From a virus, in IMG/VR virus record IMGVR_UViG_3300008113_000149, positions 1 through 64,000 of that record: a stretch of 64,000 nt of DNA; one strand, given 5' to 3'. The position numbers and the translations under genes are program-made. The notes beneath the pieces were generated by a model. The model was given only the letters and a program-made list of their open reading frames with translations, was not told where the DNA came from and ran no database searches. Shown here piece after piece: positions 20,736-44,261 of the stretch. How positions within the stretch are numbered: position 1 is the first letter of the stretch; each line of letters opens with the position of its first letter.

Positions 20736-23700
20736 ATGCCTGAAGATAAGAAACCAACTCCTTCTGCCCAAACACCAAAGCCTAAAATCGGTCCATTAGG
20801 CAAGGGTCCAGAAGATCCAAATATGGTTCAGCCCCCTAAACAAGGTTTTGTTAGTGCTCCAACTGTTAAAAAACCAATCGGTAAAGAGGGAATAAAAGTA
20901 ATTAACAAAGCAGCTGCTCAAGTAAGTCAAGACTTTGGTCCAATGACGAAAGTAGATGACTTAGAACAGTTACAGGCAACCCGTGAAAAGGAAATTGAGT
21001 TGGCCAAAGAGCAAGGTTACAATATTCAAAACCTATTTAACACATCAAAAAACAATTTCGGTAAAGTAAGAATTGGCAATGAGGATATCGCAAGTCCAGC
21101 TGATTTATTAATTGCTTTAGAAGATAGAAATAAAAAAGAATTATTTTACTTTGATAACCGCAATAATCTTGTAAATAACTTTAATATTTACACGCTTGAT
21201 GATTTAGACGCAAAAGTATCTGGGGGATTGACCACAACGGAAAAAAGCAATTTAAAGCCACTCCCAGAAAAAACAATCTTTGATTATACAGAAGTAAAGG
21301 CTCCAGGTTTTGGACAGCCGGGGTATCGTCCACAGACTGATCCAATGGCAGGCAGTCAACTGGACCCACAGAATAAGTTTGAATTGGGCCAAAAAAATTA
21401 CAGCGCGATTCAGACATTTAAAAAAGTGGTTGCAAATGGTTTGAATATAACGGCAGATGGCACCAAGTTAAACTCATATCAAGACTACTTTACTTACTTG
21501 GCAGACCCTCAGCATCGTGATGCATATGGTCGTAAGTACAACAAACAATTATCAAACTCTGAGTTAGAATCTGCAAGCAAAATTCTTAAGGACAGCCAGA
21601 TATTACTTGACTCTGCTTCAACCGTAGCATTGGATGCCAAAAAAGAGCAACTAGTAAACGATATCCGTATTAATACCGCGGATGATCACATATCAACTAC
21701 GTTGTTAGGAAAGACGGCTACAGTTTATGATGAGGACGTAGAGAACCCAAAGAGTATACCACAACTTACCGAAGATGATTTAGGTCGTTTGATTTGGGAG
21801 CATGAAAACGGAAACGAGATTACATTAAGCGTTGTTAACAACGATAAGAATTTACGCGGCAAAACTGAGTATACATACAAAGATTTAACGAATTACTTTT
21901 CTAAAGTAGGGTTAACTTCAGATGAAATTGATACGCGGTTTGCTCAGTACAAGCAAAATTACATTTACAATCAAGCCAATGGAAATCTTGAAACTAAACG
22001 TAAGCAAGCAGGTTTCTTTAAAAATGAAAACGGGCAACTGATTTCAAGATACGATCAAACAAAAGAACAACGCGCTCGTACTGAGATGTCCGATGTCGAC
22101 AATCAGATTGCAGATTTGTATGATGAGTTAAGGGGCATTTATGAATCTCGTAGGGCTGGGGCGTCAGAAATCGATAAGAAAGCCTATGGCCCAACGATTA
22201 GCAAGTCTATGTTTGCTAGTACCCCGACATTAGGATTGGATGGACAGCAAATCAAACGTATCAACGCGATTAATTCTTCGATCGCCAAATTAAAGCAACA
22301 GGCTGGATACAATGCTCCCGAATTCTTTGATCCTAGTGGCAAAAGAATCGATCAGCCAGAGCAGTTACAAAAAGTAACTCAGACATATAATCAAACTCTC
22401 GAAGAAGATAAAACAAGTGATATTGTATTTTTAAAGCAGAAGAGAAATGTTTTGTATGAGCAACTCGATGCATTAAAGGAGAAGATTGATAAAGTCAAAA
22501 GTGTTACTAGTAAAGTAGAAGTAACGGCACCAGAAGGATTTGAATCAGATAATACGGCTTATTTTGTTAAGTTGTATCAATCATTTACAGGAGTACTTGG
22601 TCAACTAGGCCAACCACAATCTCAAGGTCAACTAAACAATCAAGCGTACTTAGGTAAAATGCTTGACCAATATGGTGAGTTGAGTGCGCGAATTAAAGCA
22701 GTCAACAAATTAATCTACACCAATACCGATTTAACTAAGCAAGCGGAAGATGGTTGGGTTAAAACATTTGGTAAAACAGCAGTAAAACAAGTTGCTGAAA
22801 CATTTACCGGGGATGTTTACAACACAGTAAACGATGAAATCGAACAGACTGCTAATTTCTTAAGTGAAAATGGGTACTATGTAAGCCCCGATATAAAAGA
22901 AAAGTTAACTACAATCTACGAAAACAAAACAATCGGAGAAGGCTTTTTGGAGTCATTGAAGATTGGTATTGAAATGAGTGGTTATTCGCGTGGTGGTGCA
23001 GCGGAGTTGAAGAATATTTTCACTGGCCAAAAGGCATTGGTCTTGCGTTCTTATATGATGAGCCGTTATGGACAACCTGGTGCCGCGGCATTTAACTTGA
23101 TGGAAAGTGCCGTAGTAAAATACGGGGTGCCCATCTTTTCTTGGGAAGCAGCGGGTCAATCTGGTAGTGGTGCGGTGGCAGAACAAGTTGGAACGCAGAT
23201 ATATGACAAATTAACGGGCGTTATGAAGTTCGGGCAGTTGATCCCATCAAACATCTTTGGGCGTTTGATGTATACTGCTGGGCGTACTCTTTTTGGTACG
23301 GGGGGTCAGATGACAGAGGAAACTTTCTCTAACACCTGGGCAGTAATGCAAGAAAATGGTTTCGATATCATTGATGCAACCAAGAGAGCCTACGGTGATA
23401 CAGAAGACGAACGCTTATTGAATTTACGTGCTACTGCAACTTTGTGTTTCACAATGTCAGCATTGAATCTAGAGAATGTAGATTTGGTATTGAAAACAGC
23501 ACAGAACTTTGAGGCACATTTGAATTCATTAAGCACACCTCCAAGTGCAGTAGATACTGAAATCTTACGTATGCTTAACGAAACAATTAAGCATAGCGGA
23601 TGGGATGAAACCAAAACGCCACAAGTAGTACAGGCCGCTGGAACTACAATGTCTGGCGATGTTCCTGTAACTGCTCCTTTGCCGACGACTCAGAACAACA

Positions 23701-26700
23701 TTCAAGGTAGTAGTGCGACTGCAAGTGGAACTCCTAGTTCAAGTGAAACCGATGTCAAAGTAGAAAAGCGTCAAGGCAACTTAGGAGAGACATTCTACGT
23801 AGCAGAGAATAACGGTGCCATCGATGGTCGAGTATCGTACAGATACAACCCAGAGAACGGAGTATTGGAGGCAAAAGGTTTGACTTCTACGACAGATGAG
23901 TTTGTGCCTTTGAATGAAGCAACTCAAAAACACATTGAAACCAAATCGGTGAATAACGGGATTGCCCCAGCCGAAAAGGTAGAATCTCTGGCAAAGAAAA
24001 ACTTGGGGATCACCGAAGATCAAACAGAAAACCTGCCTGAGGATAACAATGTTTTGTATCAAACCCCTCAAAATGAAACAGGGCGTAAAAAGAAAGAACG
24101 AGTAGACAAAACAGTGCAAAGTGCAGAGAAACGGTTTAACGCAACTTTGGCACAAAAAGCACAGCGTATATTGGGATTGTTTACTGGCATCGCGGAAAAT
24201 GTAGATGAAACTGACCCACAGATCAGACAAAAGATGTCTGATTATCGCAATGCGATCGGCAATAAATTGCGTGTGAACTTGAGTTCATTCTTTAATGATG
24301 GTAAGGCTGTAATCACAAATTTGGTTAACAAAAAGATTGGCAAGGTTGCCGATTACACAAATGCATTGTTACATGACTTTGATAAATCATTTGATGAAGT
24401 AATTGATACAGATTTAAATACCAACCAACCTGTAACACGCAGAAAGTCTGGCAATGTAATTGATAAATTGAAAGAAGGTATTGCTCGCTCTAACTTCTTT
24501 AACGAGAAATTACGTCCGTTGGTCGATGCAGGTAAAATGACAGAAGAGGAGGCCATTAATAACTTGATGGCGGATATGTTGTTGAACAATGTGAGTGTTG
24601 TAAAAGACATCTTTGGTAATGACACCCCGGCTTACGAGGCGTTTAAATCCATGCGTAAAGACTTCAATAATTACGTAGCAAATAAATACACAGGTTCAAA
24701 CACGTTTAGTTCCACTGAGAATTTTTTGCAAAATACTATCATGTCAGATAGTACTACCAAGAATAGAAAAAGTGACTATAAGAAAAAAGCACAGGATGTA
24801 GCGGATGCTCAGAATCGACGCAATGAGATTGCGGCTACTTTATCTGATGCTGGACAAGGCGTTGATGTCGCTCAAGTGGACGGCGTCAGATTCTTAGACA
24901 ACGAAATTACCGCAAAAGAATACTTAGACAACAACAATGTAGATACAGCAGGTATGACTCCCGATCAAATGATTGCGGAAGCAGAAAACCTTGCTAACTC
25001 TTCAGTTGACATGGATAAGTATAGACAAGCATTGACTTTGGAAGAAGAAAACCAAGCGGCTAAGAAAAAGCATGTTGCCCAGTTGAATAGAATGGCAAAA
25101 GGAGTATTTGGTATTAAAACCATGAATCCTTTACGTAAACGCAAAATGGCCAAACAAAGACAGGCTATTGCTGCGGTATCGTATGCTTTGTTGAAGTCTA
25201 ATGCACATCGCGCGGGCATGAGCATGACAGACTTCATGAAGAATGCCGTAGAGTTCAAAAAGTACACTGAAGTTGCATTCAATGCTTTGATCCGTCAGAA
25301 TCAAAATGTAACTACCCTTTACCAAGCAATCAGTAAAGTAGGGGCAGAAAAATTAGGCGCAGACTTTAACAAAGCATTTGAACTAGAAGAGCAGGGATAT
25401 ACCCAGGAACAAATTTTACACATGACAGGCTTCACTAAAGATGCTAGTGGTGAGTATGTGTATCAAATTCCTCAGACAGCGGTACCCAAGGCGTTTGTGT
25501 TAGGAGGAACGATGTTCAATCAGATTGTTCAAAAGACGTTACCTAACTTCCCGGCAATTCAAGCCAAGGTTTCAAAAAAGAAATTCCTACGATTCAATCA
25601 AGTAAATCGCGGCACGTATACGATGGCAGATTTGTACGCAAGTCATCCTGTGTTTGATGCCTATCCAGATGCTCGCAATGTATCGGTTCAAGTCATCAAT
25701 AAACCTGGGGCTGATCCATATATGTTTGTGCCAAATGCTTTTTATAAGGAGGGAAAAGGTTCAACTCCCGGTAAGATTGTAATAAACTCAGCCACTATTT
25801 CGCAAGGTACTACAGGTACTGATTTGGAAATGGCAGTTGCTGGTCAGTTTCAGAATGCCATTCAGCACATTGAAGGTGTATACAATCGCCCTCAAAAAGA
25901 TGTATTCGTAAATCCAAACTCAGTAAGAACGGCAATAAATACTTTGCGTTTAAATGAAGAGGCTACTAGTGATGATGTAGAGTTTATAAACTCTATGTTG
26001 GATGCGTTCCAGAATGCAAGTATTTTCCAGTTCAGTTCTTACCGCAACGCGTTTGCAGATATCGCCAACGTGTTAATTGGTTATAATTTGACTAGCGATA
26101 ATGCATTGGATGTGAATGATGAGTATTCAGCGATCTCTTTGCTAGGGCAAAAATATGGCTTGAATGATTCTGAAACCCTAGAATTAAAATCACAGTTTGC
26201 TAACGCAATTGGCAAACTTCAAGCGGTTGAAAACGAGACTTCATCGGCTGCCAATAAAACAAACAACGTCATGAGACTTTGTTTGACTTTGTCGGGTTTA
26301 AACGAGAGTCAGTTGAACAACTCTGAGTTGTCGGTAAAAGAGGCAATGAATTTGCTTGAGGCTAAGTCATCTTTGACAAACGCAATCTTCAAAAATTTGT
26401 TTGAGGGGCCTCAGAGCCTAACTCAAGTGGAGAAAGACTTACTCGCTAAAAACCAGGAGCAAGTATCTCAAATCAATCCAAGTCCAAAATTAGAAGCGGC
26501 ATTCAATCAAATTCTAGATGGCTATGCAGATTTCGCGGATGCCTTCAAAGATGTAGAACCTTACATGCAATACTTGGATGAAAATGGCAAAGCCAAGTTG
26601 AAAGGTTTAATGGATTTGGCGGAGAGATTAAAAAACAATCCATTCAAGATTTTCGAAGCAGGGGATTTGGTAGCAGCAGTTGATAAAATCACGGCGGATT

Positions 26701-29700
26701 TAGATGCTCAAGTGACTGATTTGTACAACGCTGGAAACTACGATAAGGCGGAACGAATTCAAGAAGTCATTGATAAAACACATGACGCAAGTGACAGTTT
26801 ACACCAAATCCTACAAAACGCAAATGAATTGACATCTGCTGTTTCATTCGGAGATCAGTTGGTAACTTCTCAGTTCGCAAATCAAGAATCATTTTACAGA
26901 GCATTCCCGGGTATCGACAGTGTTGAGAATGGAATTTTTGATCCTTACAAACCAGTATCTGAGTTTTCAGAAAGCGAGTTGAAAGGCTTACTAGTTCCGA
27001 ACTACATGTCTGAGGCAGACTTTACTAAGAAGTACGAAGCCTTTAAAGTAAACCCAAGTGCATTTAAAGGAAGTGTAGCGGATAATTTTATTGGCAAGAA
27101 AGAACTCGATACCGCCGCTAAAAACAAAGCGTTAGTATCAGCAAAGATTCAAGAGTCAATTGCTCGCAACATAGGTACTAGATTTTATAATAACATCGAT
27201 AAAGCGTATGGAAGTTTGATGGTTGATCCTAACCCCAGCGTAAACAAAGTACAAAACACAGTTGATGCGTGGGATACATTATTGAAAAAGTATGGTGCCA
27301 AGCAGTACGAGTTGAACTACATGAATTGGAATACGTTCAAAAATGACAACGCGGTAGACGGTAAATTGACAGCGGCCCAAGTTCAAAACTGGATCAATAG
27401 TAACAGAGTAAACCTTGCAGTATTCGACCCTAGCCAAATTGAAACCCAAACTCAAGTTAAAGATGTTTACGTATACAGAAAGTCAGAAAGCGATCCTTAC
27501 TTGGCAACTGGTATACTTGAGTCAGGTGAGTACTTTGAAATTGAAGTAACCCCTGCGGTAATTGAAAAACTCAGAGAAGAGTTGAGCATCACCGTAGATA
27601 AAACCTCACAGGAGTATAAAACTTACAAAGAAGCATTCGATAAACTTGACGCGATTGGAACTGTAAACCCTGATGTGCCATCAATGAAGCAAGCATTAAA
27701 ATTAGTACTTAATGCTCGGGTGCGTGCTCTTCAAAATAACTATGCGGCAAGTGGAGATGTTGTTCCGAATATTATTAATAAGTGGGAAAGTTATAGTATC
27801 TACTCGACCAATTTGCAGTTGTCTGGTAAACCATTCCAAAAGAAAAGTTACCATGAGTTGTTAATTTCATATCCGAATCGTTCAGTTGCTAAAGCCAATG
27901 ACGCGAAAGAAGAGTTATTGAAAACTATGAACCGACTCCAGGAACTTGACAAACAAAGGACGGCTCAGAATGCGGCGCAGACGGATAGTGAAATTCTAAC
28001 TCTTAAAAATAAAATTGACGAGTTGAATACCGCTATGGATATCCCAAATAACTATAGCGATAATACTGCAACACAAAAAAATCACTTTGCTGACCCTAAT
28101 GTTCAAGTTCACGCAAGGGTAAATATTCAAGTAGATGACCAAGGCAACCCTTTGCTTTTTATAAACGAGATACAATCTGATCTCGCACAAAACATTCGTA
28201 AAGAAAGCAGTTATCTAATTAACAAAAAAATTGCAGAGATTGTTTTGGGGCGTACGTTGAGTGATACGTCTGGCAACCCCATGAATGACGCTTTCGTTCA
28301 AATTGGAATAAATGAAATAGAGATTGCAGCATGGAGAGATAATAACCCCGCAGAGTATGCTAAAATTACTGAACAAGTAAAAGAAGACTTCAAAGATTAT
28401 AGTCCAATTGATCCTAACCAAATTACCCTATTGGGATTGAAACACGCGATCAATTTTGCTATTGAAAATGGGATTAGTAAAATTCAAATGAACCGCCCAC
28501 AGTTTGCAGGACCGTCCGTGTTTGCAATTACATATAGGCAGTCAAAAGGATTGGAAGACAACTACACTAAAAAAATTCCAGGGTTAATTAATAAACTCCA
28601 AAAGGATTTGAAGTTTACGGTTTCAGAAGCCCCCAATGGAAGTATTACCCCATACACATTTGCGGATATTCCAAGTGATCAAGATTTGGCTCAACATGCG
28701 TCAGTACTAGAAAATGATTTTGCAGATAAATTAGCAAGAGACCCCAACAATAAGGAATGGATTGCTTACATTCTTAAAAACGAGTATGGGTTTAATGATT
28801 TTGAAGTAAGTCAGTTTGACGTAAATTCAATAAATGGTTTTCGTGATCTTGCTCAAACACAATTAGATTGGGTAAATAATGTAATAATGCAATTGACTGA
28901 TTCTACAACAGCAGAAGAAGTCATTAGTGCTTTTGGAGAAGACTTTAAAAACACCTTCGGCAAAGAATTGACCACCGCCGATGCTGAAGAATTGTTATCT
29001 GATCCTTACGTATTTACAAACCGAAACGTATTGAAAATAATGTATAGCAACAATGCTAACTTTATTACAATCAACCTTACAGAAGAATCCAAAGATATTG
29101 TTGCTGCTGGTATGGCATTGTTTCAACAGGATCAAGCAGGTGCCCATGGTGCCACAGTATTCCAAGAGCATGGTCCGACCATTATTGCAGCGTTGACAGA
29201 TGCCAACTTCTCTACTCCTTTACATGAATTGGCTCACCTTCGTGAGAAGTACATGACCCCCGAAGAGAGATTGATTGTTATGGAAGCCGCTGGACATGAC
29301 ACTTGGACCAGAGAAACATCTGAGTATTTTGCCCGAGGATTTGAAAAGTATTTGTACGAAGGCATTGCACCAAGTTCTAAACTTGCCAAGGCATTTGAGA
29401 ACATGCGTAAGTGGATGTTGCAGGTTTACGGAGCAATAAAGGGTTCGGATATCGATATTGCATTGACTCCAGAAATGCGTAGAATCTACGACGCGATGTT
29501 GGGGCAGGCCAAAACAACTGCTGTAGCAAACAAAATCGATGTAGACAAATCAATCTACGACGAAATTGCTGTTTTCGCGGATGAAATTAAAGCGAACCCA
29601 GAGTTTGCTGGTATTACTGACGGAGAAATGTACAGTGCTCTTTTGAAAAAAGGATTTGACCCAGTTGATTTACAGGATTATTTCGCGTTGCGTTCTCGTA

Positions 29701-32700
29701 AGAACGTACAGGCTCAGATGGAAAACAAAGGTCAGTTCCGTGATGAGGCCAATACCATTCAGAACGAGCAGGAAGCGATGCGTACTATTCGTGATGAAAA
29801 GGCTTTGACCGAAGAAATCGAGAACATTGACCCTGTTGATTTGCCACACATGTTGGAAGCGTTAGAGGATGTGGTGTCAGATGGTGACGTACCATTTGCC
29901 ATCCTAATCCGTGATTTGCTTCAGATGAAAGCCAACAACGCAGATCCACAGCAAATCAAAGAGCAGTACGCAAAGATTCTTAAGATAGGCACAGGTGTAG
30001 GACGTATGCTACAAATGATGCGTCAGTTGAATGGCGAATCTATCGAGATGAATGCTCGAGGCTTATTTAAGAAAGCAGAAAGAGATGGTAAGGTAATTCC
30101 AGAAGGAAGCAAGTCTAAAATCTTGGCGTTGGCTCAACAACTTGACCAGTTAAAAGAAAAATTAAAGAGTGCTCGTGAGGCGGCTGCAACAAACCCCTTG
30201 GGTATTTCTAAGAACGATCCGACCAAAAACAACATCGAGTACTTCAAGTCTGTACAAGAAGAGTACAAAACATTGGTAGAATCTTACGTAAGTGAACGTA
30301 TGCCATTTGAAGGTACTTCATCATTGACAGATTTGTACCGCTCGTTGGTGAAGGGGGGGTTGATGACTCCTTCGTCGTTCTCTGTGAATACACTTTCGAA
30401 CGTAACTAAGTTCTTTACCAACTTCGTAGTTGACCCATTCATTAGCCGCCCGATCAGTTTTGTAAGAAGTAAACTGACAGGCGAAGAGCAAGCGACCAAA
30501 AAAGGTTTGCGTGATGCTTTGCGTGGGGTGAAATACGGATTCCCAAGTGGATTCAAACGTGCTTGGAAAATCTTGAAGAACGGAAGTGTCATCGAAGCCT
30601 ATGATAATCCAGGAGCATTTGTTCAGTCGTTCAACTCGTTTAAGTCATTTGCCAACACAGTGGGTATGGTTGTTTCATTGGGACAACGTAAACTTGGCTT
30701 TAATGATTTGAGTAACGACGAAATTGCTAGTATCTACAAGATTAAACTTGACCAAGAGACAGGCAAAATCAGCACCAAGGATAGCATTAAGAAAGCAATC
30801 GAAGGTTCGTTTGGTATTATTCCAGATGTGGTATTCAGAATCATGGGTGCTACGGATGCGGTCTTCAGAGACTATGCTTACTACAGTACGGTGGCCGAGC
30901 AGTTCAAAAACCAAGCGGATAACAAGCGTATTGAAACTCAGTTGAAAGATGCTTCTATCCCGGCCGATGAAAAAGCAAGGTTGCAAAAAGAACAACGTGC
31001 TTTGAGAAAAGCGTATATGCTTTTGAATAGTGACTACGGAAACGATGTGGCCAATGCTGATGCTATGCGGTTCGTATACACCGTGGACAACGATGTGACC
31101 AAAGCAATCGCCGGGATTCAAAAAGGATTATCTTCAACTGAAAAAGCAACTGGGTCTTTCTTACCTAAGGTATTGAAAGTATTGGGTACAGGTGTAGTTC
31201 CATTCACAAAAATTCCTACGAACTATGCGGTGGAATTGATGGAATTCTTGATCCCAGAATACGCGTTGTTTAAAGTTGGAGTTCAAGGCAAGAAGCGTCT
31301 TACACGTATGCTCAAGGGCGATACTCGTACGGCTGAAGAAATTGAATCAGAAACTTTCAAGTCTAACCGTGAGATGGACAGAATCTTGGGTCGCGCGATT
31401 GCCGGGGCTACTATTCAGTATGTGGCAGGTGCAATTGCTCAGAGCGGCGCGGTGTCAGGATCTCCAGATGACGAGGAAAACAAAGGCAAAGCACGTACCT
31501 TAGCGTACAAATTCGAACGCCCTTATTCTATCAACATTACATTGTTGAAAGCCTTCTTTAATGGAGAGCGTCAAGATGGTTTGTGGGATCCAGAAAATGA
31601 TTTGATTGTTGACTATCGTTCATTTGGCTTGTTCGGTGCTTCTTTGTATTTGCAGAACAAATTTTCTAAGGAAAGCGGTAAAGAGCCAAACACAGAATTC
31701 GCAAACCGTGGTGTATTGGAAAAGGCTAACAGCATGTTCTTTGGTAACTTTGGAGACGCGGGGGAATATATTCTTGATCAAACTTTCGTGAGAGGTATTA
31801 ATTCATTCGCCAAAATCCTTACCGAAACTGACGAAGATAAGTTGGCATCTTCTTTGGCTGACTTTACTATCACATTGACTGCGGGTATCTTGCCAAACAC
31901 ATTGAGTTTCATCGACAAGATGAACCGCAAGTATATGGTAGATTACGATGCCAAAGAGGCTCCGTCATTCAAGGCGTTTGGTATGGAAGTAGAAAGCACA
32001 TTCGCAACAACTTACTGGACCAAAATGGCAATCAAGTTGTCAGAAAGATGGCCTATGGGAGATCCCACTAAATTTGTGGACTTGCCATTTGTTGAGTCTC
32101 AGTTCAATGAGATTCCTGTAAAGGTTGACCCATTTGGTATACCAGTGCTTCAAACACCAGAAGGGAGTGTAATGGGCAAATTCCTTTACAACACTTTTGA
32201 TGTGACCAAGGCAACTAGAGGTATTGCAGGATATGATGTACCCGATTGGGAAGCGTTGGTATACTACGCTACTAAAAAAGGTGAATTTTGGGATGCGATT
32301 CCAAGTCTGCCCCCACGCACTTTGATTGATGAGCGCGGAGTAAAATACAAGTTGAATCCAAACGAATACAACAACTATGTAATGTTCAATGCTCTGAAGC
32401 GTCGGGAGTTGGTAGAAAAAGCCTTGATTAAAAATGGCGTTTACAAAAGGTTCATCGACATGGAGTCTGAATTGAACATGGATCAAATTAACAAAACGCC
32501 TAAGACAGGAAAGGGCAATGTGTTGTTTGGTTATGAGCAACTTGGGGCGGTGTTGAGTACCGTTTACGCAGCGGCAGATAAAGCCTGTACGTTGGCTTAC
32601 TTTGATTTGATTAGTGCTGAGCGTGAGAAAATGCGTAAAGACCAACCCGATAAGTACAAAAAGTTGATTGACGATGAATCTAGATCGGTTTACGGCAAGG

Positions 32701-33071
32701 CAATCAGTGATAAAATTTATGGAGGTTTGGATGAATCATCAGCAACTGACAACTACAAAGCAACTGCTGTGCGACGTGTGAACAACGGAAAGGTTTCTTA
32801 CCCATATAAAATTGACGAACAATCCGTGTGGACCAATATTACACAGGAAGAAATTTCCAAATATGTGACTGGCACCATGAAAGATTTGCGTAATTTTACG
32901 GTGAAAAATCCTATTGTTCCCAAGACAAACACAGTTACTTTGAAAGATGGTACTCAGATGGTGGTAGAAACGCCAATCGCAAAACCAACAGTAAAGGCTG
33001 GGGCGTCAGAACAAAAGGGTGGAGGTAAGCAAGTTACACTATCTGATGGCACAGTAATGATAATTGACTAA
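20736..33071 (+). CDS. Giant polyvalent virion protein with zincin metallopeptidase motif
   Basis: At 4,111 residues this is the largest protein here. The order seen is: a Pro/Lys-rich start; helical regions; Gly/Ala-rich possible membrane segments around 740-900; and a region near 2370-2640 with NPLLFINEIQSDLAQ and LKHAINFAIENGISKIQ. The last resembles a domain common in 'large polyvalent proteins' of phages and conjugative elements. HELAH at 2830-2834, with Glu2863 in SEYFARGFE, matches zincin peptidases. A C-terminal part (about 3180-4000) has hydrophobic stretches near 3190-3230 and 3540-3570, and a disordered tail ends it. Such proteins are injected with the DNA. I see no DxDGD-type RNA polymerase motif and no transglycosylase motif. 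Confidence 0.75.
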   Translation: MPEDKKPTPSAQTPKPKIGPLGKGPEDPNMVQPPKQGFVSAPTVKKPIGKEGIKVINKAAAQVSQDFGPMTKVDDLEQLQATREKEIELAKEQGYNIQNLFNTSKNNFGKVRIGNEDIASPADLLIALEDRNKKELFYFDNRNNLVNNFNIYTLDDLDAKVSGGLTTTEKSNLKPLPEKTIFDYTEVKAPGFGQPGYRPQTDPMAGSQLDPQNKFELGQKNYSAIQTFKKVVANGLNITADGTKLNSYQDYFTYLADPQHRDAYGRKYNKQLSNSELESASKILKDSQILLDSASTVALDAKKEQLVNDIRINTADDHISTTLLGKTATVYDEDVENPKSIPQLTEDDLGRLIWEHENGNEITLSVVNNDKNLRGKTEYTYKDLTNYFSKVGLTSDEIDTRFAQYKQNYIYNQANGNLETKRKQAGFFKNENGQLISRYDQTKEQRARTEMSDVDNQIADLYDELRGIYESRRAGASEIDKKAYGPTISKSMFASTPTLGLDGQQIKRINAINSSIAKLKQQAGYNAPEFFDPSGKRIDQPEQLQKVTQTYNQTLEEDKTSDIVFLKQKRNVLYEQLDALKEKIDKVKSVTSKVEVTAPEGFESDNTAYFVKLYQSFTGVLGQLGQPQSQGQLNNQAYLGKMLDQYGELSARIKAVNKLIYTNTDLTKQAEDGWVKTFGKTAVKQVAETFTGDVYNTVNDEIEQTANFLSENGYYVSPDIKEKLTTIYENKTIGEGFLESLKIGIEMSGYSRGGAAELKNIFTGQKALVLRSYMMSRYGQPGAAAFNLMESAVVKYGVPIFSWEAAGQSGSGAVAEQVGTQIYDKLTGVMKFGQLIPSNIFGRLMYTAGRTLFGTGGQMTEETFSNTWAVMQENGFDIIDATKRAYGDTEDERLLNLRATATLCFTMSALNLENVDLVLKTAQNFEAHLNSLSTPPSAVDTEILRMLNETIKHSGWDETKTPQVVQAAGTTMSGDVPVTAPLPTTQNNIQGSSATASGTPSSSETDVKVEKRQGNLGETFYVAENNGAIDGRVSYRYNPENGVLEAKGLTSTTDEFVPLNEATQKHIETKSVNNGIAPAEKVESLAKKNLGITEDQTENLPEDNNVLYQTPQNETGRKKKERVDKTVQSAEKRFNATLAQKAQRILGLFTGIAENVDETDPQIRQKMSDYRNAIGNKLRVNLSSFFNDGKAVITNLVNKKIGKVADYTNALLHDFDKSFDEVIDTDLNTNQPVTRRKSGNVIDKLKEGIARSNFFNEKLRPLVDAGKMTEEEAINNLMADMLLNNVSVVKDIFGNDTPAYEAFKSMRKDFNNYVANKYTGSNTFSSTENFLQNTIMSDSTTKNRKSDYKKKAQDVADAQNRRNEIAATLSDAGQGVDVAQVDGVRFLDNEITAKEYLDNNNVDTAGMTPDQMIAEAENLANSSVDMDKYRQALTLEEENQAAKKKHVAQLNRMAKGVFGIKTMNPLRKRKMAKQRQAIAAVSYALLKSNAHRAGMSMTDFMKNAVEFKKYTEVAFNALIRQNQNVTTLYQAISKVGAEKLGADFNKAFELEEQGYTQEQILHMTGFTKDASGEYVYQIPQTAVPKAFVLGGTMFNQIVQKTLPNFPAIQAKVSKKKFLRFNQVNRGTYTMADLYASHPVFDAYPDARNVSVQVINKPGADPYMFVPNAFYKEGKGSTPGKIVINSATISQGTTGTDLEMAVAGQFQNAIQHIEGVYNRPQKDVFVNPNSVRTAINTLRLNEEATSDDVEFINSMLDAFQNASIFQFSSYRNAFADIANVLIGYNLTSDNALDVNDEYSAISLLGQKYGLNDSETLELKSQFANAIGKLQAVENETSSAANKTNNVMRLCLTLSGLNESQLNNSELSVKEAMNLLEAKSSLTNAIFKNLFEGPQSLTQVEKDLLAKNQEQVSQINPSPKLEAAFNQILDGYADFADAFKDVEPYMQYLDENGKAKLKGLMDLAERLKNNPFKIFEAGDLVAAVDKITADLDAQVTDLYNAGNYDKAERIQEVIDKTHDASDSLHQILQNANELTSAVSFGDQLVTSQFANQESFYRAFPGIDSVENGIFDPYKPVSEFSESELKGLLVPNYMSEADFTKKYEAFKVNPSAFKGSVADNFIGKKELDTAAKNKALVSAKIQESIARNIGTRFYNNIDKAYGSLMVDPNPSVNKVQNTVDAWDTLLKKYGAKQYELNYMNWNTFKNDNAVDGKLTAAQVQNWINSNRVNLAVFDPSQIETQTQVKDVYVYRKSESDPYLATGILESGEYFEIEVTPAVIEKLREELSITVDKTSQEYKTYKEAFDKLDAIGTVNPDVPSMKQALKLVLNARVRALQNNYAASGDVVPNIINKWESYSIYSTNLQLSGKPFQKKSYHELLISYPNRSVAKANDAKEELLKTMNRLQELDKQRTAQNAAQTDSEILTLKNKIDELNTAMDIPNNYSDNTATQKNHFADPNVQVHARVNIQVDDQGNPLLFINEIQSDLAQNIRKESSYLINKKIAEIVLGRTLSDTSGNPMNDAFVQIGINEIEIAAWRDNNPAEYAKITEQVKEDFKDYSPIDPNQITLLGLKHAINFAIENGISKIQMNRPQFAGPSVFAITYRQSKGLEDNYTKKIPGLINKLQKDLKFTVSEAPNGSITPYTFADIPSDQDLAQHASVLENDFADKLARDPNNKEWIAYILKNEYGFNDFEVSQFDVNSINGFRDLAQTQLDWVNNVIMQLTDSTTAEEVISAFGEDFKNTFGKELTTADAEELLSDPYVFTNRNVLKIMYSNNANFITINLTEESKDIVAAGMALFQQDQAGAHGATVFQEHGPTIIAALTDANFSTPLHELAHLREKYMTPEERLIVMEAAGHDTWTRETSEYFARGFEKYLYEGIAPSSKLAKAFENMRKWMLQVYGAIKGSDIDIALTPEMRRIYDAMLGQAKTTAVANKIDVDKSIYDEIAVFADEIKANPEFAGITDGEMYSALLKKGFDPVDLQDYFALRSRKNVQAQMENKGQFRDEANTIQNEQEAMRTIRDEKALTEEIENIDPVDLPHMLEALEDVVSDGDVPFAILIRDLLQMKANNADPQQIKEQYAKILKIGTGVGRMLQMMRQLNGESIEMNARGLFKKAERDGKVIPEGSKSKILALAQQLDQLKEKLKSAREAAATNPLGISKNDPTKNNIEYFKSVQEEYKTLVESYVSERMPFEGTSSLTDLYRSLVKGGLMTPSSFSVNTLSNVTKFFTNFVVDPFISRPISFVRSKLTGEEQATKKGLRDALRGVKYGFPSGFKRAWKILKNGSVIEAYDNPGAFVQSFNSFKSFANTVGMVVSLGQRKLGFNDLSNDEIASIYKIKLDQETGKISTKDSIKKAIEGSFGIIPDVVFRIMGATDAVFRDYAYYSTVAEQFKNQADNKRIETQLKDASIPADEKARLQKEQRALRKAYMLLNSDYGNDVANADAMRFVYTVDNDVTKAIAGIQKGLSSTEKATGSFLPKVLKVLGTGVVPFTKIPTNYAVELMEFLIPEYALFKVGVQGKKRLTRMLKGDTRTAEEIESETFKSNREMDRILGRAIAGATIQYVAGAIAQSGAVSGSPDDEENKGKARTLAYKFERPYSINITLLKAFFNGERQDGLWDPENDLIVDYRSFGLFGASLYLQNKFSKESGKEPNTEFANRGVLEKANSMFFGNFGDAGEYILDQTFVRGINSFAKILTETDEDKLASSLADFTITLTAGILPNTLSFIDKMNRKYMVDYDAKEAPSFKAFGMEVESTFATTYWTKMAIKLSERWPMGDPTKFVDLPFVESQFNEIPVKVDPFGIPVLQTPEGSVMGKFLYNTFDVTKATRGIAGYDVPDWEALVYYATKKGEFWDAIPSLPPRTLIDERGVKYKLNPNEYNNYVMFNALKRRELVEKALIKNGVYKRFIDMESELNMDQINKTPKTGKGNVLFGYEQLGAVLSTVYAAADKACTLAYFDLISAEREKMRKDQPDKYKKLIDDESRSVYGKAISDKIYGGLDESSATDNYKATAVRRVNNGKVSYPYKIDEQSVWTNITQEEISKYVTGTMKDLRNFTVKNPIVPKTNTVTLKDGTQMVVETPIAKPTVKAGASEQKGGGKQVTLSDGTVMIID

Positions 33072-33984: not shown

Positions 33985-34593
33985 ATGAGTTATACAAGAC
34001 AACAAATCGAAGCAGCCGTTAAAGCAAAAGGCTACAAGTATTTTGAAAACGGTGATTTCAACATCAATATCATCGGTATTCGTAATTCATCTACTGGTAA
34101 GAAAGTTACCAATGTATTTGACGACCACTTGACTCTTTCTTACAAAGAAGGTGGTGTTTGGAAATTTTTAATTTGGCCTGCGACCACTGATCCAGGAACT
34201 AAGGGGGTTAAGGAATTCCACAACGCAGCAGGTGTTGCTCGTTTGGTTCCCGGCCAATACCCTGGTTCACACCATTTGGGTTTACACCAAGGTAAGTACG
34301 AGGCTTTAAAACAGAAGGCTAACGTAAAAGTTTACCGTGATGCCAACCGCGATATGACTTACGATGAGTCTAAAATCCAAGAGGGTATTTTTGGAATCAA
34401 CATCCACAAGGCTGGAGCCGATAGTCAGACTGTAGAAAACTGGTCTGAGGGATGTCAAGTATTTAAGAAAGCCGCTGATTTCGAAGCGTTCATGGTTATT
34501 TGTCGCAAAGCCGCACAATTGGGAGGAAATTCTTTTACTTACACTTTGATTGAAAGCAAAGACATTGTAACTGAAAAAAGTACTACTGCTTAA
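33985..34593 (+). CDS. Putative cell-wall enzyme with L,D-transpeptidase-like SxGC motif; candidate endolysin
   Basis: The 202-residue protein has GINIHKAG (His141) followed by ENWSEGCQVF (Ser154, Cys157). This is the spacing and shape of the YkuD L,D-transpeptidase active site (H...S-x-G-C), although the usual final Arg is replaced. Earlier Gly/His-rich GQYPGSHHLGLHQGKY also recalls that fold. Such proteins occur near tail genes in Bacteroidetes phages and may cut or modify peptidoglycan. There is no signal peptide or transmembrane segment, so release would need a holin or it acts as a virion enzyme. I see no other lysozyme or amidase candidate in the window. Confidence 0.55.
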   Translation: MSYTRQQIEAAVKAKGYKYFENGDFNINIIGIRNSSTGKKVTNVFDDHLTLSYKEGGVWKFLIWPATTDPGTKGVKEFHNAAGVARLVPGQYPGSHHLGLHQGKYEALKQKANVKVYRDANRDMTYDESKIQEGIFGINIHKAGADSQTVENWSEGCQVFKKAADFEAFMVICRKAAQLGGNSFTYTLIESKDIVTEKSTTA

Positions 34594-39390: not shown

Positions 39391-40617
39391 ATGAAACTCT
39401 CCCTTAGGGCATCAATATCACTGGGTGTGGCCATTCTGATAATGATGGTGTTCTTTGGGGTACAGAGTGCGGTTGTATTTGGATATTTCGAACCGTCATT
39501 ATTAGTTATAGAATTTGGGTATGGTTGCATCATTGCTTTCATACCCTTTTTCTTTTTTACGCTCATTGAATTTGTTCGCAAAGCAAAATACAAATCGCAG
39601 TCTGTTGATGATACTTTAAAGGCAATCAACATATCAAACGCTTTGGTGGAGTTGGATTTGCAGGGCAATATTCTGAGTGCCAACAAAGTGTTTTGTGAAA
39701 TTATTGGGTACTCGGTCTCAGAACTTAAAACGGTAAAACACCGACAACTCGTACCCGAAGTAAGCGACTACGATTACAAAATGTTTTGGAGAAACCTACA
39801 ACTAGGTTACGCAAACTCTGGTGAGTTCCAAAGAATCAGTAAGAGCGGGGAAATTGTTTGGATATACGGTAATTATAACCCAATCAAAGATCCATACGGT
39901 GAGGTGTATCGCGTGATTAAGATTGCCTCAGACATTACTGACAAAAAGAAAATCGAAGCAGAGGTTGCCAAGAAAAACAGTTATCTGGAACACGCCGCCA
40001 AGATTCTACGTCACGACATGCATTCTGGAATCAACACCTACATCCCAAGGGGATTATCGTCGTTGAAGCGTCGCTTGAGCGAAGAGCAGATTAAAGAAAT
40101 GCGTATTGAAGGGCCGTTGAAGTTAATCGAAGAGGGATTGACACATACCCAAAAGGTTTACAAAGGCGTTAAAGAATTCACCAACTTGGTGAAAAAAGAT
40201 GCACAACTGGAGAAGACAGAGTGCAATTTGAAAGATATTTTGCAGTCTTATCTGTCATCTACTTCATATGAAAAACAAGTAGTTATCGATGAGATGCCTA
40301 TTAAATTGGTCAATGAAAGTTTATTCTGCACCGCCGTGGATAACTTGATTCGGAACGGCCTAAAATATAACGATTCGCCAACGAAGATCGTTCGTATCTT
40401 TGTTGAAAACGGTTACTTTGTGATACAGGACAATGGTCGAGGCATGTCACAGCAAGATTTCGCGCTGTGGTCTCAGCCTTACACCCGAAAGGAAGGACAG
40501 GAAGAAGCAGGATCGGGCCTAGGACTTAACATCTGTACTGCAATCATGGAAGAACATGGCTTCAAAATAGAAGTTGAAAAGTTACAAGTAGGCACAAAAA
40601 TAAAATTAAAGATATGA
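39391..40617 (+). CDS. Membrane-bound PAS sensor histidine kinase
   Basis: The 408-residue kinase has two membrane segments (about 9-31 and 37-60) with almost no extracytoplasmic loop. A PAS domain follows (about 72-184, with the core WIYGNYNPIKDPYGEVYRV and ending DIT). The phosphoacceptor helix carries RHDMHSG (His208). The ATPase domain has an N box DNLIRNGLKYN (317-327), G1 DNGRGM (347-352) and G2 GSGLGL (374-379). All catalytic elements are present. It should autophosphorylate and pass phosphate to the adjoining receiver protein, whose start overlaps this stop (ATGA). With so short a periplasmic loop, the signal is more likely intramembrane or sensed by PAS in the cytoplasm. Confidence 0.9.
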   Translation: MKLSLRASISLGVAILIMMVFFGVQSAVVFGYFEPSLLVIEFGYGCIIAFIPFFFFTLIEFVRKAKYKSQSVDDTLKAINISNALVELDLQGNILSANKVFCEIIGYSVSELKTVKHRQLVPEVSDYDYKMFWRNLQLGYANSGEFQRISKSGEIVWIYGNYNPIKDPYGEVYRVIKIASDITDKKKIEAEVAKKNSYLEHAAKILRHDMHSGINTYIPRGLSSLKRRLSEEQIKEMRIEGPLKLIEEGLTHTQKVYKGVKEFTNLVKKDAQLEKTECNLKDILQSYLSSTSYEKQVVIDEMPIKLVNESLFCTAVDNLIRNGLKYNDSPTKIVRIFVENGYFVIQDNGRGMSQQDFALWSQPYTRKEGQEEAGSGLGLNICTAIMEEHGFKIEVEKLQVGTKIKLKI

Positions 40618-41051
40618 TCGATTCTATATTACTGGTTGACGACGAGGACTTGTTCCATTTGGTGTTTGAAGATTCATGTTCATTATTGGACATCACGCTT
40701 TCTCTTCAGAGTTTGACTTCATCTGACGAGGCAGACCGCTTGTTCAAGAAGTGGTTCAACGAAGGCCCGGTAGAGGAAAGACCAGAGTGCGTATTTGTCG
40801 ACCTTAATATCATCGGCTCATCTTTTGACGGAATTGAGTTGATTAGAAAGATCAATACCGAGTATGGCAATGGTGTGGTGATAGGAATCATCTCGTCTTC
40901 TGACGACAAGCAGGAGATTGAAAAGGCCAAAAAGGTGGGGGCTCAGTTCTGGATCATCAAGTCAGACGAAATCGAACCCCGTCTAGAGGCATTCCGTAAC
41001 GACTACGACGGATACAAAAACAAGACTGCTCCCTTTAAAGTGTACAAGTGA
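40614..41051 (+). CDS. Stand-alone response regulator receiver
   Basis: The 145-residue protein is a complete receiver domain: acidic pair Asp9/Asp10 (LLVDDED), phosphoacceptor Asp63 (CVFVDLNI), Ser93-95 (GIISSSDD) and Lys116 (WIIKSDE). No DNA-binding or enzymatic output domain follows, only a short Lys-rich tail. Output must therefore be by protein contact (CheY/Spo0F style), plausibly with the coiled-coil membrane protein encoded next. Its start overlaps the kinase stop and its stop overlaps the next GTG start, so the genes are translationally coupled. Confidence 0.9.
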   Translation: MIDSILLVDDEDLFHLVFEDSCSLLDITLSLQSLTSSDEADRLFKKWFNEGPVEERPECVFVDLNIIGSSFDGIELIRKINTEYGNGVVIGIISSSDDKQEIEKAKKVGAQFWIIKSDEIEPRLEAFRNDYDGYKNKTAPFKVYK

Positions 41052-41596
41052 TAACCTTCAGCAAGGATACCTGTAATGAACTGATAGCGTTATACAAAAC
41101 CAAAAAGATATCGCTAGAAGGAAATATCTTAAAAGTCATTAAGGGTGGAGATGCTGAGTTTTCAAAGTACATCGAGGAGGCAAAACAGCGGGACAACGAT
41201 ACTAGGCGGAAGCGATTAGAAATCACCAAGCAGGTCCAACAACAGAACAAAGATTTAACTGAGAGCCAGGCCGACAGGGACAAACTGATGGCTGAGTTAC
41301 AGGTGTCTTTGGCGGAGTCAGAAAAACTAAAGAACGCGGCGGTTGAAGATTTAGAAACCCTACAGAAGCGAACTCAGTTTGAGTTGGTAGGATTGATTGT
41401 TAAGGTTGCATTAGGAGTAATCGGCACAGTTGCATTTTTGACATCTATTTTATACTTTTACGTCATATCTAAAGGATTGGATGCCAAGATCATAGAGAGC
41501 ACTTGGTCAAATCTTTTTGGTATATTGCTGACGAATTCGTTTTCTATAATAGGAACAATCATGGGAGTTAAATACGCATCTGGTGAAAAGGGGTAG
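41048..41596 (+). CDS. Coiled-coil membrane protein of the two-component operon
   Basis: The 182-residue protein (GTG start overlapping the receiver stop) has a soluble N-terminus of about 40 residues. A charged coiled coil follows (about 42-110: REKR-, Q- and L-rich heptads). Two membrane segments come next (about 116-140 and 153-176). The N-terminus should face the cytoplasm, where it could contact the receiver. The paired C-terminal membrane segments resemble a small channel, holin or sensor module, but no family is recognised. Functional link to kinase and receiver is inferred from the overlaps. Confidence 0.6.
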   Translation: MITFSKDTCNELIALYKTKKISLEGNILKVIKGGDAEFSKYIEEAKQRDNDTRRKRLEITKQVQQQNKDLTESQADRDKLMAELQVSLAESEKLKNAAVEDLETLQKRTQFELVGLIVKVALGVIGTVAFLTSILYFYVISKGLDAKIIESTWSNLFGILLTNSFSIIGTIMGVKYASGEKG

Positions 41597-41906
41597 TCAA
41601 GAGTGGATAGACAGTATGAATCGTGCCTGCGATAGCCTTGTGGACATGATGCATGCGAGTCATGTTGAGGAGATGAATGAAATCGATGATGTGAGCGCGA
41701 TGCAATCCTCAACTGTAGAACCATTGGATACAGATGCTAACTGGTATATGGGGGCACAGAGTTATGTAGTGCCTGCATTTTTTGTGATCATGCTGACCTT
41801 ATTTATTTTTGGCACGATGACATTATTGGACACTCGCAAGGCAAATAAAAATAAACACAAGTTGAAAGTTTTGGATTTTTTGGAAGACGATAAACAATCA
41901 AAATAA
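41583..41906 (+). CDS. Single-pass membrane protein, end of the two-component operon
   Basis: The 107-residue product (GTG at 41583; an ATG at 41616 would give 96 residues) has an acidic N-terminal region (HVEEMNEIDDVSAM). It has one membrane segment (about 59-80, VVPAFFVIMLTLFIFGTMTL) and a Lys-rich C-terminal tail, suggesting N-out, C-in. It overlaps the previous gene by 14 bases and is followed by a promoter for the next transcript, so it closes the operon. Confidence 0.55.
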   Translation: MKRGSQEWIDSMNRACDSLVDMMHASHVEEMNEIDDVSAMQSSTVEPLDTDANWYMGAQSYVVPAFFVIMLTLFIFGTMTLLDTRKANKNKHKLKVLDFLEDDKQSK

Positions 41907-41914
41907 AAATTAAT

Positions 41915-41922
41915 TATATTTG
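41915..41922 (+). promoter_or_regulatory. -7 box (TATATTTG)
   Basis: TATATTTG ends 4 bases before the ATG at 41927. Confidence 0.65.
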
Positions 41923-43047: not shown

Positions 43048-43274
43048 TGTTAGGTTACACACTTACACCCGAAGAAAAGGATTTGATTCAAGGGCAGTAT
43101 TACACGCCTTATCAATTTTTTAATTGCGTTCAAGACATTAACGGAACTTGGTTTTTGTTTCTTTCCGATGAAGACAAACCCGAAGTTGCAATAACCGAAT
43201 ACGCTTGGGTTTTAGATTTACCCGAAGCCGAATACATACCACCACCAGCACCGCCATTCCCACCTACTGAATAA
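43047..43274 (+). CDS. Small acidic protein after the spike gene
   Basis: The 75-residue product opens LGYTLTPEEKDLIQGQYYTP and ends in a Pro-rich tail (PPPAPPFPPTE). It is coupled to its neighbours by one-base overlaps. A fibre-assembly chaperone or spike partner is possible from position; no family is proven. Confidence 0.5.
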   Translation: MLGYTLTPEEKDLIQGQYYTPYQFFNCVQDINGTWFLFLSDEDKPEVAITEYAWVLDLPEAEYIPPPAPPFPPTE

Positions 43275-43555
43275 TGACTGCTCCAAAGATAAAACCCAAC
43301 GCGTTCCCGGTTTCATTTGATCAATTCAAGAAGAACCCAATTGCTGCTGTAGCATTTTGTATGCTAGTTGCTGTTTCATATTTGTACTACGATGTAAAGA
43401 CTGGTTATTCAGCGCAGATTGAGAATGCTAATGCAAAGATCACAGCGTTGGAAATAAAGGTAGATAGGATGAGTTCAGCATTAAAGAAATCTGACTCCGC
43501 CCTCGCTGCCGCCATTACTGAGTTGAGAATCATCAACACCGTCAAAAAGTTATGA
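43274..43555 (+). CDS. Membrane-anchored coiled-coil protein, i-spanin-like
   Basis: The 93-residue protein has a short cytoplasmic N-terminus and one membrane segment (about 24-40, IAAVAFCMLVAVSYLYY). A periplasmic coiled coil follows (about 48-88). This is the layout of an inner-membrane spanin (Rz type), which helps disrupt the outer membrane at lysis. The neighbouring 141-residue secreted protein could be its partner, although that protein lacks a lipobox. Confidence 0.5.
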   Translation: MTAPKIKPNAFPVSFDQFKKNPIAAVAFCMLVAVSYLYYDVKTGYSAQIENANAKITALEIKVDRMSSALKKSDSALAAAITELRIINTVKKL

Positions 43556-43977
43556 AAAACATACTACTTATATTCTGCGCCTTGTTTTTGATGGGAGAAT
43601 TGATCTTCCCAGTAAAGGCATTGAACTCTCCGAACATCGATGAGATCGAAGAGATGTTAAAAAAGGTTGAGAACAACATGAAGATGGCTTCTCAAGTCGT
43701 GTCTGTCGCCAAAGAAAAAGGTGAAAAGTTGGTAGAAACCAAAGTAGAAGAGAAGGCAGAATTGAAAGAAGCCGTTCTTACTGCTGAGGCCAAGGTCGAA
43801 GTAATGGAAAAAAAGAACGAAGTTTTCATGCAGAGAATGGTAGAAGTTGGGTTAGATACCAGCACGGTACCTGTTGAAGAGGCAAAGTTGGCAGGACCTG
43901 TCTATGACGAATGGTTACAGTACAGAAAGAACGGTGGGGAATCAGATTTTGAGTACTACCGTTTGTACAAGAAATAG
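43552..43977 (+). CDS. Secreted coiled-coil protein in the lysis region
   Basis: The 141-residue protein has a signal peptide (about 1-23, MKNILLIFCALFLMGELIFP...). A long Glu/Lys/Val coiled coil follows (about 30-100), then a short acidic C-terminal domain with FEYYRLYKK. It is coupled by ATGA to the i-spanin-like gene. No lipobox Cys follows the signal, so it is not a classical o-spanin; a periplasmic partner is possible. Confidence 0.5.
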   Translation: MKNILLIFCALFLMGELIFPVKALNSPNIDEIEEMLKKVENNMKMASQVVSVAKEKGEKLVETKVEEKAELKEAVLTAEAKVEVMEKKNEVFMQRMVEVGLDTSTVPVEEAKLAGPVYDEWLQYRKNGGESDFEYYRLYKK

Positions 43978-44012: not shown

Positions 44013-44261
44013 ATGAAAAAATTAATTGGATTTATTAGCGGTATGTTTACCGATGAAAAAGGTAAACCATCCTCTAAGAGATTCGTTGGAATCGTTGCTG
44101 GGTTGATGTTATGCGTCACCATGTATGAAAACTCATTTACTGAGGCTCACTTTGCTCCTGCTGAATCATTGGTGAACGCTGTTGCTGCTTTGGCATTCGG
44201 TTGTTTGGGTTTGGCTAGTGCTGACAAATTCTTCGGAAAGAAGTCTGATGGCGAAGGATAA
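44013..44261 (+). CDS. Putative holin
   Basis: The 82-residue protein has a basic start (MKKLIGFISGMFTDEKGK), two hydrophobic segments (about 28-40 and 55-70, VAGLMLCVTMY and AVAALAFGCLGLA) and a basic C-terminus (DKFFGKKSDGEG). Size, two membrane segments and charged ends suit a class II holin. Similar small proteins (FISGMF, SSKRFVG) are common in Bacteroidetes phages. It has its own promoter, as a timing gene might. Confidence 0.55.
   Translation: MKKLIGFISGMFTDEKGKPSSKRFVGIVAGLMLCVTMYENSFTEAHFAPAESLVNAVAALAFGCLGLASADKFFGKKSDGEG

Follow-up and report, generated by a model that had tools for sequence, protein, structure and literature searches.

Phages are known to take their decisions through repressors, through peptides such as arbitrium and through holin clocks. 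In T4 lysis inhibition, RI and RIII act on the holin T, and we know of no phosphorelay in that system. In Gram-positive bacteria, LytSR together with LrgAB/CidAB provides two-component control of holin-like membrane proteins, and the regulator, LytR, is a DNA-binding LytTR protein. The intramembrane-sensing histidine kinases of the BceS, LiaS and SaeS type have an N-terminal hairpin of two transmembrane (TM) segments with a very short external loop and no extra sensor domain, while the bacterial systems of the CheY, Spo0F and Rcp1 type consist of a kinase with DHp and HATPase_c domains and a receiver that keeps its acidic pocket but lacks an output domain. Pelagiphage histidine kinases sit in curli (T8SS) clusters with FecR and adenylate cyclase (PMC9599517), so that phage kinases as such are already known; these are phage-encoded like the kinase described below, and the accessible part of that source describes no receiver partner and no coiled-coil membrane protein with them. 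The cRec domain of jumbo phages has a receiver-like fold and is reported never to occur with a histidine kinase (PMC7824862). In the open-access papers searched, we came across no account of a kinase-receiver pair encoded by a phage, nor of a dedicated phage set of kinase, receiver and effector.

The window, which is the whole stretch of DNA that we analyzed, covers 64 kb of the 67,969 bases of a virus record. Because this record encodes a portal protein and a terminase large subunit, in addition to a DNA polymerase and a primase-helicase, the placement of the locus in a phage by the first-pass annotation is borne out. Four genes, for a histidine kinase (HK), a receiver (RR), a coiled-coil membrane protein (CC) and a fourth protein, lie on the + strand and overlap head to tail from 39391 to 41906. 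The coordinates, frames and overlaps given earlier for these genes are correct, with ATGA at the HK/RR junction, GTGA at the RR/CC junction and 14 bases shared by CC and the fourth gene; across loci, the usual junction between the HK, RR and CC genes is a 4-base overlap. The features of the operon are:

39391..40617, + strand: HK, 408 aa (Pfam domains, invariant motifs)
HK residues 11-29 and 37-55: N-terminal TM hairpin, external loop nearly absent
HK residues 81-186: PAS domain (Pfam)
HK residues 197-268: DHp domain with His208
40012..40014, + strand: codon of the predicted phosphoacceptor His208 in the ILRHDMHSG box, invariant in 44/44 homologues
HK residues 311-407: HATPase_c domain (Pfam)
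40614..41051, + strand: RR, 145-aa stand-alone receiver (Response_reg, AF2 model)
40800..40802, + strand: codon of the predicted phosphoacceptor Asp63, invariant in 46/46 homologues
41048..41596, + strand: CC, 182 aa (AF2 model, 37-sequence alignment)
41583..41906, + strand: optional fourth gene, single-pass protein of 107 aa

A candidate Bacteroidota-type -7 box at 41915-41922, 5' of the next gene, was rejected because such boxes occur in the window at the frequency expected by chance. No tRNA genes were found. Elsewhere in the window, the virion structural genes are followed downstream by one open reading frame that spans 4,111 codons (20736-33071).

HK matched HATPase_c (E=3.7e-14) and PAS_3 (E=4.4e-12) in Pfam, and among 44 diverse homologues H208, N318/N322, D347-N348-G349-x-G351 and G374/G376/G378 are all invariant; PF02518 was found in 44/44 of these kinases, with the N, G1 and G2 boxes present. 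The matches and motifs confirm the initial description of a membrane PAS kinase with all ATPase boxes and His208. PAS domains occur in about 33 of the 44 kinases and GAF domains in 3, and there are short kinases of about 300 aa in which the hairpin is joined straight to the DHp domain without an extra sensor domain. The HK of the window shares the hairpin of the intramembrane-sensing kinases but differs from that class by its PAS domain, and only the short phage versions match the class fully. A single RR is preceded by a pair of same-family histidine kinases in three large phage records (L195, L298 and L308), and one of the pair in L195 is without the membrane hairpin.

RR matched Response_reg (Pfam, E=3.2e-8), and D9, D10, D63, S94 and K116 are invariant among its 46 homologues. 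The receiver residues had been read as Asp63, Lys116 and Ser93-95; the aspartate and the lysine are correct, while the serines are Ser94-96. The AlphaFold model shows a confident receiver fold (pLDDT 92), and comparison with the PDB returned receivers at query TM-scores of 0.60-0.76, the fold neighbours including Rcp1-type, EutV and phytochrome regulators. Neither Pfam nor the model of the 145 aa revealed an output domain or a DNA-binding domain, as the first-pass annotation had said of the latter. The sequence features tested place HK among the two-component histidine kinases and RR among the single-domain response regulators, and the pair resembles the CheY, Spo0F and Rcp1-type systems in the respects listed above. 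Unlike them, it is encoded by phages and obligately tied to a coiled-coil membrane protein that belongs to no known family, and its receiver shares just about 30% identity with those cellular receivers that were found. Since RR has no DNA-binding LytTR output, the system is not of the LytSR type, and in contrast to cRec (PMC7824862), RR is always accompanied by HK.

CC consists of a small N-terminal domain (residues 1-35), a helix of about 107 residues that enters the membrane and a second TM helix, with TM segments at 113-131 and 156-174, which agrees with the coiled-coil protein with two membrane segments first described; its AF2 model has a pLDDT of 85, yet a pTM of 0.39. In the 37-sequence alignment the second TM helix, STWSNLFGILLTNSFSIIGTIMGVKYA, is near-invariant and forms the most conserved segment of the protein (mean majority-residue frequency 0.91), with N155, T162, N163, S166, G169, T170 and G173 invariant. 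No relatives of CC were found in Pfam, PHROGs or the PDB and none of the Pfam/PHROG holin families matched it, so that its identification as a known holin or a known fold was ruled out; its one good structural match is an uncharacterised protein of an uncultured phage in BFVD. CC represents a new family of membrane proteins, marked by a TM helix that hardly varies. The fourth protein is single-pass as proposed, with its one TM segment at 62-80, and neither it nor CC gave a family match to RI or T homologues in Pfam or PHROGs. Where present, the fourth gene always lies directly 3' of CC, but it occurs in only 25/113 distinct loci; the four-gene unit of the first-pass annotation therefore does not hold, and the conserved unit is the three-gene set HK-RR-CC. 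In about 11 loci (L232:871-1500 and its relatives) CC is followed by the gene of a 49-aa membrane protein and then by one that resembles DNA/RNA non-specific endonucleases. The gene directly 3' of CC in another locus (L292:833-2431, record G009), on the same strand, encodes ankyrin repeats and gives a weak match to a guanylate/adenylate cyclase domain.

After the removal of duplicates, 147 loci contained CC, and gene order was tested in the 101 of them whose sequence reaches beyond 3.2 kb on the upstream side of CC. HK-RR-CC was found in one order and on the same strand in all 101 of these distinct loci, so that of the set sought in other phages the first three genes are kept together and the fourth is not. 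Insertions into the operon were seen (a YceI-like protein, a 166-aa membrane protein, a rhodopsin and a second HK) and left the gene order unbroken; the YceI-like gene, of the lipocalin fold, separates HK from RR in two large phage records (L079:5468-5989 and L107:5025-5516). The dN/dS values are 0.08 for the catalytic part of HK, 0.05 for RR and 0.09 for CC, indicating strongly purifying selection. The mean majority-residue frequency is 0.55 in the HK TM hairpin and 0.46 in the PAS region, and rises to 0.87 in DHp, 0.74 in the ATPase domain and 0.85 in RR, the most conserved protein of the triad; the alignments thus indicate a variable input region with a frozen phosphotransfer core and membrane output. 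Covariation between HK and RR is clear, with z up to 7.6 at RR residue 12 (the start of helix 1) after clade effects had been partly removed, and it indirectly suggests that RR is phosphorylated by its cognate HK. Covariation between RR and CC is weak, in that the output face of RR is joined to the N-terminus of CC in 8 of the 30 top pairs against 2.6 expected, for regions picked post hoc, and shuffling of partners inside fine clades removes most of it. Mirror-tree correlations of 0.56-0.73 were set aside because there was no neutral gene to provide a baseline.

The first-pass annotation had also pointed to holin and spanin-like genes downstream of the operon. The lysis-associated features of the window are:

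33985..34593, + strand: endolysin-like protein (phrog_3000 / phrog_33083 family); a homologue lies directly 3' of CC in G013, G016 and G025
43274..43555, + strand: i-spanin-like protein, short TM segment and coiled coil; weak Rz-like PHROG matches (E=0.06-0.09)
43552..43977, + strand: o-spanin-like partner, signal-peptide coiled coil, paired with the preceding gene in relatives
44013..44261, + strand: holin-like small two-helix membrane protein, from hydropathy; homologues near other triads

The operon is followed at 1.4-2.4 kb by the spanin-like pair and the small holin-like gene, and the closest family-matched endolysin lies 6.3 kb upstream of RR. The spanin-like pair is found in relatives too, where homologues of the 43274..43555 gene directly follow CC or CC and the fourth gene; the 43552..43977 protein had no convincing family match in Pfam or PHROGs. 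For the "holin", the cluster member tested for 44013..44261 matched no family. We searched whole records for six lysis-associated families, namely holin PF05105, Amidase_2, the phrog_3000 endolysin-like family, phage lysozyme, peptidase M15 and DUF5675, the last being of unknown function. Among the 31 dereplicated records with any match, which are related and hence non-independent, 17 had a lysis family no more than 3 kb from RR, where random placement would give 5.25 (P<5e-5), an enrichment that is somewhat inflated because most of the families were first noticed as neighbours; the link to lysis genes is far stronger than the window alone had suggested. Holin PF05105 was near RR in 8 of 9 records, with 1.4 expected, and lysis proximity was also above that of random placement inside the same 40-kb regions. 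In a PHROGs and Pfam scan of neighbours, the near set included at least four endolysin families and the far set none among the 25 families listed. The arrangements differ between phages: the triad is flanked on both sides in the order lysozyme-HK-RR-CC-endolysin in G013, G016 and G025, lysis genes again stand on both sides in G020 (amidase-TM-HK-RR-x-CC-...-holin), and elsewhere we found holin-spanin-like-HK-RR-CC, or CC followed directly by a spanin-like pair. Such differences speak for a functional link and against a region inherited from a common ancestor. In four records (G001, G003, G005 and G024, the first three of them large) there is no recognised lysis gene close by, the nearest being 7 to 59 kb away.

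The reading we favour, to which we give roughly even weight, is a virus-dedicated phosphorelay in which RR acts through the inner-membrane protein CC to time lysis. Its parts are not equally firm: from sequence, the kinase-receiver chemistry is near certain and CC is likely to be the output, while lysis as the controlled process is what we infer first from the neighbourhood. HK would be anchored in the host inner membrane by its two-helix hairpin, with a periplasmic loop of almost no length, and the hairpin may detect the state of the membrane or envelope, to which most HKs would add cytoplasmic ligand or redox sensing through PAS or GAF. HK is predicted to autophosphorylate on His208 and would pass the phosphate to Asp63 of RR. 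Phosphorylated RR would then contact CC, protein to protein and without DNA binding; CC is the probable target because it is never found apart from HK and RR, and the first-pass proposal that the receiver targets the coiled-coil protein is in this way supported as likely. The N-terminal domain and long helix of CC would be cytoplasmic, with the TM hairpin in the membrane, and CC may either promote or restrain the adjacent holin/endolysin system and so set holin triggering. The time of lysis would then track the sensed condition and not a fixed clock, a proposed logic that is shared with T4 lysis inhibition, where a sensed state alters holin timing.

The same membrane parts could serve another end. 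HK might sense a second phage or envelope damage, and CC might block superinfection or stabilise the membrane, so that the module guards the infected cell and adjoins lysis genes merely since both are late and membrane-acting. The intramembrane-sensing hairpin of HK, the near-invariant TM helix of CC and the records without nearby lysis genes are all consistent with such protection; we consider it unlikely, though the strongest of the alternatives, since lysis proximity exceeds random expectation both in 40-kb regions and in whole records and unrelated holins and endolysins recur in the same neighbourhood. Slightly less probable is that CC is itself a holin-like hole or channel gated by phosphorylated RR and not the regulator of a separate holin. 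Its two-TM hairpin and the invariant small and polar residues of TM2, its most conserved part, would suit a pore, but several triad phages have a recognisable holin within a few genes, and CC itself matches no holin family.

The distribution of the genes bears on two further explanations. Relatives of RR were found in 392 IMG/VR contigs and relatives of CC in at least 595, while neither was found in 50,697 records of isolate phages and CC was found in none of 72,556 plasmids, where the receivers present have only about 30% identity to RR. A scan of 84,980 prokaryote genomes with two conserved peptide patterns, which would miss distant cellular relatives, gave CC in one, a GTDB genome contig (CAJQGZ010000002.1; L162) that carries the whole triad beside terminase-like and PhoH-like genes as read by eye; with such neighbours it looks like a phage contig, and binning of a phage into a metagenome-assembled genome probably explains it. 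Two-component genes are widespread in bacteria, so one has to consider that an ordinary host signalling operon was captured as a set of auxiliary metabolic genes or that a piece of bacterial DNA was mis-binned; these counts, together with the portal and terminase genes on the record of the window, make either highly improbable, and host capture or contamination was ruled out on the contrast between the viral contigs and the isolate-phage, plasmid and prokaryote-genome counts. It is also improbable, if less extremely so, that the proteins rewire host signalling, with RR draining phosphate from host kinases or rivalling a host single-domain regulator and CC as an anchor only: the stand-alone receiver and its being the most conserved protein of the triad would fit, but a decoy needs no conserved cognate kinase and CC of its own at every locus, and the plasmid-borne cellular receivers are too distant to favour it. 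That a complete kinase-receiver pair is phage-encoded, as first claimed, is supported, whereas the rarity of intact pairs in phages holds for the isolates and not for the uncultured phages; given its absence from the isolate collection, the system could easily have been missed. The carriers range from fragments to records of 297 kb. Major capsid proteins of the crAss type occur in three triad records and, more weakly, in three others including the window, whose match (E=2.8e-5) is under the curated cut-off, and T4-type gp23 occurs in four other triad records, and the module has therefore been transferred as a block between unrelated phage lineages.

In two records, a microbial rhodopsin of 193 aa is encoded between RR and CC (L103:5393-5971, in a record that also holds L187, and L296:6001-6579, on a 297-kb contig). 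The two proteins are 84% identical to each other, match Bac_rhodopsin in Pfam (E=1.2e-13) and have the viral rhodopsin OLPVRII as their best solved relative; a DLTAK motif aligns with the retinal-lysine region, and the 297-kb contig also carries a T4-type capsid protein. The position of the gene within the operon suggests a light input, and if the rhodopsin is functional, light would be one input of HK-RR-CC. We tentatively extend the timing reading to a phage-specific module of crAss-type and T4-type phages, a broader picture that is possible but rather less probable than the timing reading itself, in which interchangeable sensors (membrane hairpin, PAS, GAF and, in the two records, microbial rhodopsin) feed a near-invariant phosphorelay and a new membrane effector that decides the time of lysis, light-gated in some.

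The occurrence of HK-RR-CC in hundreds of uncultured phages, usually beside lysis genes, suggests that phospho-signalling decides the time of lysis in them. A strictly conserved phosphorelay owned by the phage would add a sensory layer to phage decisions, and would account for a possible link of lysis to host or environmental state in uncultured phages that are abundant and in some cases have crAss-group capsids. HK-RR-CC offers a defined and testable kinase-receiver-effector trio, and the rhodopsin in two of its operons opens a direct test of a response to light.
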